Source: Candidatus Poribacteria bacterium
Lineage (GTDB): Bacteria; Poribacteria; WGA-4E; WGA-3G
Assembly (NCBI GenBank): GCA_022821965.1
Contig: JAJECN010000051.1
Coordinates: forward strand, 1-64,000
Length of the DNA stretch: 64,000 bases
Direction: 5' to 3'
Below are positions 41,050 to 43,583 of this stretch, piece by piece; within the stretch, counting starts at the first letter, position 1; every line of letters begins with the position of its first letter. The notes beneath the pieces were generated by a model, which ran no database searches, was not told the DNA's origin, and saw only the letters and a list, made by a program, of their open reading frames with translations. The translations under genes and the position numbers were made by a program.

Positions 41050-41796
41050 CTAATACGTTGCTCTTCCGCCGCTGACATCGTAGCACTGCCCTGTCACAAA
41101 ACTTGCCTCATCCGATGCTAAGAAATTCACGACAGCAGCAACTTCCTCTGGTTTCCCAACGCGTCCCAATGGAATCTTACCCACCATATAATCGATGGTT
41201 GATTGCGCCATACCTTCCAATATCGGCGTTTCGATGACCGCTGGAGATACTGCATTCACGCGGATATTATAGTCCGTTACCTCTTTCGCCAGCGCTTTCG
41301 TTAGGCAGATGACACCTGCTTTAGAAACGGAATATGGGATGAGCGTCGGATTACCCTCCTTGCCAGCGATCGAGGCGATGTTCACAATCCTGCCGTAGTC
41401 CTGTGCGATCATAGGAGCGATCACTGCTTTACAGCAGAGAAAAACACCCGTCAGGTTCACACCTATCACGGTGTCCCAATCTGCCTCTTCTAAGTCCGTC
41501 AATGGAAGCGTGCGCCCTGCAATCCCCGCATTGTTGACGAGAATGTCAACACGACCAAAGGTGGAAATAATTTTTTCGACAGCAGCGTTGACATCGGTGA
41601 ATACCGAAACATCTGCCTGAACGGGTAGTGCTTTGCGTCCAGTAGATTCAATCTCCTGCGTGACCGCTTCAGCTGCTGCCGCGTTTAAATCCATGATAGC
41701 GACATTCGCGCCTGCGTTCGCGAGTCTGATCGCAATCGCTTTACCAATACCTTGTCCCGCGCCTGTCACAATCGCAATTTTATCCGTTAGATTCAT
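41050..41796 (-). CDS. Short-chain dehydrogenase/reductase (FabG-like)
   Basis: ATG 41796 is chosen because AGGAGGG lies 7 bases upstream. The 248-residue product is a classical SDR: cofactor loop VTGAGQGIGKAIA, VNNAGIAG, the active-site YSVSKAG (Tyr and Lys), preceded by the catalytic Ser in NIASIAGKEG. The C-terminal PLGRVGKPEEVA and VTGQCYDVSGG are typical of 3-oxoacyl-ACP reductase-like SDRs. Its start lies inside the end of the probable selenoprotein gene (17-base overlap), so the two are translationally linked. The substrate is unknown; the partner suggests a redox or detoxification role. Confidence 0.9.
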   Translation of the reverse strand: MNLTDKIAIVTGAGQGIGKAIAIRLANAGANVAIMDLNAAAAEAVTQEIESTGRKALPVQADVSVFTDVNAAVEKIISTFGRVDILVNNAGIAGRTLPLTDLEEADWDTVIGVNLTGVFLCCKAVIAPMIAQDYGRIVNIASIAGKEGNPTLIPYSVSKAGVICLTKALAKEVTDYNIRVNAVSPAVIETPILEGMAQSTIDYMVGKIPLGRVGKPEEVAAVVNFLASDEASFVTGQCYDVSGGRATY

Positions 41797-42352
41797 TAAA
41801 ATCCCTCCTGAGTTCCAAAAAATCGTCCAATTCAACGCCGAACGCGTCCGCTATCCGATTGATGTAGCTGAAAAAGCCAACGACCTCCACGATGGCGAAG
41901 AGTGCTTCGTCAGTGAGTCCGTAGCTGCGGAGGTGTTCGAGGTCTGCTGGTGTAACAGTCGATGCCGCTTTTGTTACTTTAACGGCAAATTCAAGGATCG
42001 CTTTTGTGGTTTCGTCAATATCAGCGTTGTGAAAATCCGTCACAATCTGTGCAATTTGCGCATCTGTGAATTGTGCCCGCAATTCATCGGCGTGTGCGAT
42101 TATTCAGTAGTGGCATTCGTTCACTTTCGAGACAACAGTGGCGATCATTTCACGTTGCATTCGGCTCAGCGGAGAGTTCTCGTCAAACATTATCGCTATG
42201 TAGAGTTCAATGAAGGGGCGCATGCTTTTTGGGCGGACACTGAGAAGTTTGACGATATTGTAAACTTGTCCCGCCCGCGCAAGTGCAGCGTCGTATTCCT
42301 CTTTCACAATGCCGGTTGCTTCGGCTTCATCTACAGTGCGAATCCATGCCAT
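41780..42352 (-). CDS. AhpD-like peroxidase-related protein with in-frame TGA (probable selenoprotein)
   Basis: The 5' frame (ATG 42352, SD GGAGAG, 1 base after the preceding stop) runs 82 codons to TGA at 42104-42106. The same frame then continues unbroken for 107 codons to 41780. Both parts together are one carboxymuconolactone-decarboxylase/AhpD-type protein of 190 residues. It has PLSRMQREMIATVVSKVNEC before the TGA and AHADELRAQ, KVTKAASTVTPADLEHLRSY and GFFSYINRIADAFGVELDDF after it. Homologues have the redox motif CxxC at this point (...EC-x-Y-C...). Here Cys80-His-Tyr is followed by TGA, giving C-x-x-U if read as selenocysteine 83. A SECIS-like hairpin follows. The alternative is a nonsense-split pseudogene. 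Confidence 0.78.
42067..42086 (-). promoter_or_regulatory. Candidate bacterial SECIS hairpin
   Basis: Downstream of the TGA on the coding strand, TGAATTG (42086-42080) and CAATTCA (42073-42067) form a perfect 7-base stem with loop CGGGCA. The loop begins 24 bases after the TGA and has G in its second position. Known bacterial SECIS elements lie about 16-37 bases after the codon and carry a conserved loop G (family knowledge). The energy was not computed. Confidence 0.65.
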
Positions 42353-42353
42353 T

Positions 42354-43583
42354 TTACTCTCCAATCACCACGCCGTATTCACCGACAACCGCGCCTTTGT
42401 GTCCTGTCTGGTAGTGTAGGTGTCTTTCGCCGACGATAGGTTGTGTGCTTTGTACTTCCACTGTGCCGCGAACTTTCCCCATCGCGTCTTCATCCATATC
42501 TGAACAGTGAAACGGCTTAATTTGGCGGTGCACCTGCCGCTTAATCTCACCTTGTCGGTTGCGGACGATGACGTTAACAAAGGCATCTGCTTCTCCAACG
42601 TTAAGGAATCGGAACCAGTCCCTTGCGCTACCTGCAATTTCTGGGAAAAAGAGTCGGATTCCGACTTGTCCACCCTCCACCGATGCGCCGGGTAGGTCAA
42701 TAATAGCTGTCCCACTGTGCATGTGTCGTTCCGCAACAACCGGTTGATCGCTGCGTACCTCTACAGAGGATTTCACTTTAATATCATCTATGGGCGGTGT
42801 CCAGCACTGAAAAGGTCTCAGTCCGTCGAATTTTTTTGTCCATGTCGCTTGGGCGTTGTCATCTTTACGAGCGATCATCGTTACTTCTGATTCTTCTCTT
42901 CCGACGTTGACGATTACAACCCAATCTTGCCATACGGGGCCGACCTCCGGCAAAAAGAGAGTACGAGGAGCATCCGCGATCACTTGTCCAAATTGCCCGA
43001 CGGATGTCTTTCCGCCTTGATAGTGGAGATGGCGTTCCCCGACAATGGGTTGTGAACTTTGCATCTCAACGGTGCCAGTGACGTTTCCCATAACACCTTC
43101 ATTGAGGTCCCAACAGCAGAGCGGATCGATAACATGGTGTCGCTGCCTGAGTACATCACCGTTCCTGTTTCGGACGGTGATGTTGACGTGCGCGTCCGCT
43201 TCACCTACATTTAGAACACGAAACCAATCGTGGGCACCAGAAACGAGCTCTGGGAAGAAGAGCCGCTGTCCGACTGTTCCATATTCTTCAGCTGCACCGA
43301 TAAAATCAAGCACATTCGTGTCCTTGTGCATGTGTCGTTCCGCCACAATCGGTTGGTCGGCACTGAACTGCACTGAGGAATTCTCTTTAATCTCTTCAAC
43401 GTTCGGTATCCAGGACTCAAAAGAACTGATTGTTTTTTCCGCTGACCAAGTTGGTTGTCCGTTATTGGCACGCCTCGCTATTGCAGTTACACGGGTCTCT
43501 TCAGGCCCTACGTTCGTAACTTGGACCCAGTCTTGCCATTGGGGTCCCACTTCTGGAAAATAAAGGGTTGTTGCTCCTGGCAT
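42354..43583 (-). CDS. Four-repeat beta-sandwich protein of unknown function
   Basis: The 409-residue product consists almost wholly of four related units of about 100 residues, arranged as two tandem pairs. Odd units begin LYFPEVGPQWQDWVQVTNVG / LFLPEVGPVWQDWVVIVNVG. Even units begin LFFPELVSGAHDWFRVLNVG / LFFPEIAGSARDWFRFLNVG. Each ends (S/A)-x-Q-P-I/V-V-A/G-E-R-H-(M/L)-H. The (F/L)PE...DW...NVG...QPIVAERHMHY pattern resembles repeat domains of secreted actinobacterial and Chloroflexi wall proteins (QPIVAERPMYF), but there is no signal peptide here. The His-rich ends could bind metal (inference). It is first in a tight operon with the probable selenoprotein and the SDR. Confidence 0.75.
   Translation of the reverse strand: MPGATTLYFPEVGPQWQDWVQVTNVGPEETRVTAIARRANNGQPTWSAEKTISSFESWIPNVEEIKENSSVQFSADQPIVAERHMHKDTNVLDFIGAAEEYGTVGQRLFFPELVSGAHDWFRVLNVGEADAHVNITVRNRNGDVLRQRHHVIDPLCCWDLNEGVMGNVTGTVEMQSSQPIVGERHLHYQGGKTSVGQFGQVIADAPRTLFLPEVGPVWQDWVVIVNVGREESEVTMIARKDDNAQATWTKKFDGLRPFQCWTPPIDDIKVKSSVEVRSDQPVVAERHMHSGTAIIDLPGASVEGGQVGIRLFFPEIAGSARDWFRFLNVGEADAFVNVIVRNRQGEIKRQVHRQIKPFHCSDMDEDAMGKVRGTVEVQSTQPIVGERHLHYQTGHKGAVVGEYGVVIGE

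Follow-up and report, generated by a model that had tools for sequence, protein, structure and literature searches.

Does a TGA codon in the middle of a redox enzyme gene end translation, or is it read as selenocysteine (Sec)? The gene in question belongs to a member of the Poribacteria, an uncultured phylum known from marine sponges, and lies in a stretch of 64,000 nucleotides, here called the window (positions 1 to 64,000 of JAJECN010000051.1, contig C8 of a 5.69-Mb genome in 62 contigs, the closest named relatives being Candidatus Poribacteria MAGs). It is located on the reverse strand at 42352..41780 and comprises 190 codons, from an ATG at 42352-42350 to a TAA at 41782-41780, with the TGA as codon 83 (42106-42104) separating 82 upstream codons from 107 downstream codons. 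An earlier note, made from the letters of the window and silent on the strand, had located this in-frame TGA at the second Cys of the CxxC centre of an AhpD-like protein and had proposed that it is translated as Sec with the help of an adjacent hairpin; position, frame and motif are as it described. An annotation by translation table 11 would break the gene into two fragments.

The read-through product scored 155.4 bits against the NCBIfam profile TIGR01926 (peroxidase-related enzyme, CMD fold; cut-off 81.8), with 174 of the 178 profile positions covered, and 42.1 against PF02627 (cut-off 23). The motif around codon 83 is N-E-C80-H-Y-U83-I-I-A-H87, in which the UGA occupies the second redox position (CHYU) and the codon of its partner Cys80 lies at 42113..42115, likewise on the reverse strand, and is invariant in the alignment. 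We scanned the window for in-frame TGAs that join open frames in a redox-like context and obtained 19 places including codon 83; the latter, the one place among them that was searched against profiles, matches a known redox family.

A codon-level alignment of 61 distinct homologous sequences showed TGA (49), TGC (7) or TGT (5) at codon 83 and nothing else, so that all 61 carry either the in-frame UGA or the Cys that defines a selenoprotein position, and Cys is the sole alternative, as the earlier note had anticipated. In the 41 main-clade orthologues, no codon other than TGA83 and TGG3 is invariant, and synonymous sites are near saturation (median dS about 1). Because dN/dS is 0.104 downstream of the TGA (0.075 upstream), the segment past the 'stop' is, judged by its substitutions, a protein under purifying selection. 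A sequencing error is ruled out, as 41 distinct orthologues, drawn from many assemblies, share the TGA; this settles a concern that the earlier note had raised itself. The broader suggestion that the TGA is an ordinary stop or an assembly error and the downstream frame a relic, to which the deletion relics of the gene in close relatives and the further stops in the copy of genome G067 lend some colour, is extremely improbable and is refuted for the window copy by this recurrence, the dN/dS of about 0.10 after the TGA and the conserved, covarying stem described below.

Within the main clade of Poribacteria we found no Cys form. On a tree of 38 rows, the distribution of Sec and Cys took three changes, two of them forced by the starred branches, and at least two or three are needed; several long branches meet in this tree, the direction of change is unsafe, and we claim none. 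Elsewhere in the alignment, a second Sec clade of TIGR01926-like proteins (L091-L095), with C-x-Y-U followed by HAEFLR, is 32-37% identical to the window protein and is hosted by related genomes that belong to the same order and class. L101 (genome G112) and L103 (genome G100), two isolated Sec rows, are related AhpD-like proteins from other phyla with a TGA at the Cys position, and G100 carries a Cys form as well as the TGA form.

Translation of UGA as Sec calls for a dedicated machinery, and the selenium genes by which the earlier note had suggested checking its proposal are present in the genome: selA on contig C54 (521.8 bits), selB on C20 (348.9 bits), a tRNA-Sec with anticodon TCA (UCA; 78.1 bits) that adjoins selB on C20, and selD on C15 (359.2 bits). 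SelA, SelB, SelD and tRNA-Sec, the set we looked for in a selenoprotein-bearing genome, thus all occur here. The frame of selD (L012:1483-2526) holds one TGA, in the context KCAGUAS, which we read as Sec, and selD is itself a selenoprotein gene of a known type. Among the 118 genomes compared, completeness is 73-83% in every one that bears the TGA and has no SelB over the cut-off. The co-occurrence of selA and selB has been described for most sponge symbiont bins (PMC5649159).

UGA seldom serves as a stop in the window, where the 41 long frames end with TAA (23), TAG (15) or UGA (3), a pattern that would also be seen if UGA were reassigned genome-wide to Trp, Cys or Gly and codon 83 were a plain sense codon. 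We nevertheless reject this idea as having next to no likelihood, as UGA still terminates a 690-aa DUF5916/CBM9 protein in the window, in-frame TGA was found in none of seven nearby genes, selA and selB, the full Sec system is present, and codon 83 alternates with Cys only.

The remaining component is the SECIS element, for which the earlier note had pointed to a 7-base hairpin with loop CGGGCA from the 18th base after the TGA; this description is exact. The hairpin spans 42086-42067 on the reverse strand, with a 5' arm at 42086-42080 (UGAAUUG), the loop at 42079-42074 and a 3' arm at 42073-42067 (CAAUUCA). The published bacterial SECIS model allows 3-9 nt for the loop and 4-16 bp for the stem, and specifies a minimum free energy of at most -7.5 kcal/mol, a G in the first two loop positions that is mostly followed by G or U, and a UGA-to-loop distance of 16-37 nt (PMC13188914). 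All of these rules agree with what we found, namely a loop of 6 nt that begins C-G-G, a stem of 7 bp, a spacing of 24 nt and a fold energy of -8.8 kcal/mol. With a z of 0.16 against shuffles, the single sequence is no more stable than its shuffled versions, and an Rfam search of the region gave no match, as was to be expected of so short an element as a bacterial SECIS. As a hairpin seen in a single sequence is no proof, the case for the SECIS rests on comparison.

Across 34 distinct sequences, standard pairs make up 97.1% of the pair cells of the stem, and pairing drops to 25-40% when the stem is shifted by 1-3 columns. Compensatory changes occur at three stem pairs, with 18 cells altered on both sides (shuffled mean 4.4; none of 500 shuffles reached 18). 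At the level of codons, GAG is found with CTC (18), GAA with TTC (11) and GAC with GTC (4), and these concerted changes cost Leu/Phe/Val changes at residue 95; TTG is found with CAA (33) and CTG with CAG (4). The loop codon for Arg92 is CGG or CGT in 41 of 41 orthologues, two codons that account for 59 of 159 nearby Arg codons, and this limitation is in line with the rule that G is followed by G or U. In L117, a copy in G067 that is decaying and has acquired further stops, the stem pairs still match, though one stem codon is TAG.

The arrangement of the neighboring genes bears on a third reading, in which the UGA would be a regulated stop, the main product would be the 82-residue N-terminal half, and selenium-dependent readthrough would tune the overlapping downstream gene. 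This gene encodes a FabG-like SDR (41050..41796, reverse strand; PF13561, 233.8 bits). Its first 17 bases, from the ATG (41796) on, overlap the end of the selenoprotein gene, and its ribosome-binding site AGGAGG is contained in the last codons of the latter. On the other side, a gene for a 409-aa protein with repeated units (42354..43583, reverse strand), for which a Pfam search gave no match, is a conserved neighbor that ends one base before the selenoprotein ATG. The order of 409-aa gene, AhpD-like gene and SDR gene is found at nearly all loci with at least 74% identity and at two more with 66-67%; it was not seen at three loci of more distant orthologues (L071, L082, L083).

In six genomes (G003, G005, G015, G016, G018 and G025; G005 is a single contig) the AhpD-like gene is mostly deleted and the SDR gene is intact. 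The remnants between the 409-aa gene and the SDR gene measure 57-125 bases and fall into five length classes (57, 88, 104, 116 and 125), at least four of which have clearly different junctions. Loci with deletions of the selenoprotein gene at this place are L110-L115, L088 and L089. Every relic retains the 3' end, including the SDR ribosome-binding site, and just this end of the selenoprotein gene is kept together with the SDR gene, which, like the overlap itself, could be taken to favor a regulated stop. However, the SDR gene has a ribosome-binding site of its own and stays intact without the upstream gene, and we consider a regulatory stop very unlikely; the SDR can probably be translated independently of the selenoprotein gene.

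The same relatives bear on the suggestion of the earlier note that the two genes work as a coupled pair. The 17-base overlap and the adjacency in close relatives stand, whereas in six relatives the AhpD-like gene is gone and the SDR gene remains, and more distant orthologues lack this neighbor, so that the suggested coupling is supported only in part. As the SDR gene is intact without the AhpD-like gene, the SDR can do without the selenoprotein, and it need not be its partner despite the overlap. All six deletion genomes have retained SelB. The function of the AhpD-like gene is dispensable, since several relatives have lost the gene and still possess the Sec machinery. In the orthologues examined, the lineage never turns Sec into Cys and the whole gene is dropped instead, in several independent deletions; loss therefore goes by deletion and not by conversion to Cys in genomes that still hold SelB.

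Taken together, we are highly confident that the best overall explanation is an AhpD-like selenoprotein of the TIGR01926 family whose UGA 83 is decoded as Sec via the hairpin. The evidence for Sec at this codon, which comes from sequence comparison, is very strong, and the machinery, the Cys alternative and the SECIS covariation all support the translation through UGA that had been proposed. Judging from this conservation, SelB with Sec-tRNA(UCA), held by the hairpin, would insert Sec at codon 83, and translation would continue past the UGA to codon 190.

What the enzyme does can be approached through its active site. The proton relay of PA0269 consists of Glu36, Cys48, Tyr50, Cys51 and His55 (PMC3141380), and these residues map with equal spacing to Glu68, Cys80, Tyr82, Sec83 and His87. 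All five are invariant in 20 aligned sequences, in keeping with the relay residues of TIGR01926. The quality of the structure prediction is intermediate (mean pLDDT 75.9; about 85-96 for the core at residues 50-160 and low at both termini), and only fold-level matches were used; the nearest solved structures, by sequence as well as by fold, are 2PFX, 2PRR, 3C1L and 2OYO. AhpD-like proteins such as PA0269 have weak peroxidase activity (PMC3141380). By analogy, Sec83 would replace the second Cys of the CxxC in a helical-hairpin active site, beside Cys80 and flanked by Glu68, Tyr82 and His87. In the most likely chemistry, a redox cycle of two residues, its selenolate, activated by the Glu/Tyr/His relay, would reduce a peroxide or another oxidized substrate, upon which a selenenylsulfide between Sec83 and Cys80 would form and be opened by a thiol reductant, regenerating Sec83. 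This assignment of catalysis and substrate, drawn from AhpD and PA0269, appears moderately probable and is far less certain than the insertion of Sec.

Reductive dehalogenation is another reaction of the AhpD fold with a redox Cys centre, as in the debrominase Bmp8, which resembles a deiodinase. In the thyroid deiodinases it is Sec that performs reductive dehalogenation, and sponges are rich in brominated compounds. The same selenoprotein could thus have a natural substrate other than peroxide and act, for instance, as a Sec-dependent dehalogenase in organobromine-rich sponges. Bmp8 (6ohi) is indeed a distant relative, with a profile E-value of 2.6e-9 over residues 68-176 and a fold TM of 0.63, but it is just 17% identical to the window protein, and the relatives closest to the latter are peroxidase-related proteins (2pfx, 2prr, 3c1l), which makes a non-peroxide substrate unlikely in our judgment. 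The specific picture of an AhpD-fold enzyme of sponge-associated Poribacteria in which Sec is fixed for such a substrate, for example for the reductive dehalogenation of sponge organobromines, is to be regarded as quite doubtful.

The TIGR01926-type selenoprotein identified here has a number of known counterparts. A 2005 study of the Sargasso Sea described AhpD-like proteins with Sec in a CxxU motif; it filed the family under COG2128 and named a smaller, separate set CMD domain-containing (PMC1088965). AhpD-like 1 and 2 selenoproteins followed in the GOS data in 2008 (PMC2398784), and a 2026 catalogue has the entry 'AhpD-like protein, TIGR01926, CxxU' (PMC13188914). Our literature search found no paper describing selenoproteins, or a Sec-containing AhpD-like protein, in Poribacteria. 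The window gene shares with the published proteins the family, the CxxU motif with Sec in second place, a SECIS immediately downstream and Cys homologues; most of the published proteins are from ocean metagenomes, and the likeness is drawn from family, motif and descriptions.

Among profile families, NF041238 (alkylhydroperoxidase-related (seleno)protein, AhpD_rel_CFYUT) is a family of selenoproteins from the same superfamily that has a CxxU motif, but with 357 positions it has roughly double the length, and the alignment covers its C-terminal half only; the window protein scored 79.5 bits against a cut-off of 175, and a whole-genome search gave no NF041238 match over the cut-off. AhpD of M. 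tuberculosis (1GU9) has a like helical-hairpin CxxC active site and relay, and differs in its chain topology and in a His in place of Tyr82; against the corresponding profile TIGR00777 the window protein reached 19.1 (cut-off 191.95). The structures 2PFX, 2PRR, 3C1L, 2OYO and PA0269/2O4D have the same fold, and PA0269 shares the five relay positions; all of them have Cys at the second redox position, where the window protein has Sec. With the window gene, a phylum for which we found no such description gains a well-supported selenoprotein gene, and the comparison provides a clean case in which Sec is fixed in the AhpD-like centre across the orthologues found and the SECIS codons change in concert. 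Proteins of this kind have been on record since 2005, and the window gene encodes a further one, in Poribacteria.
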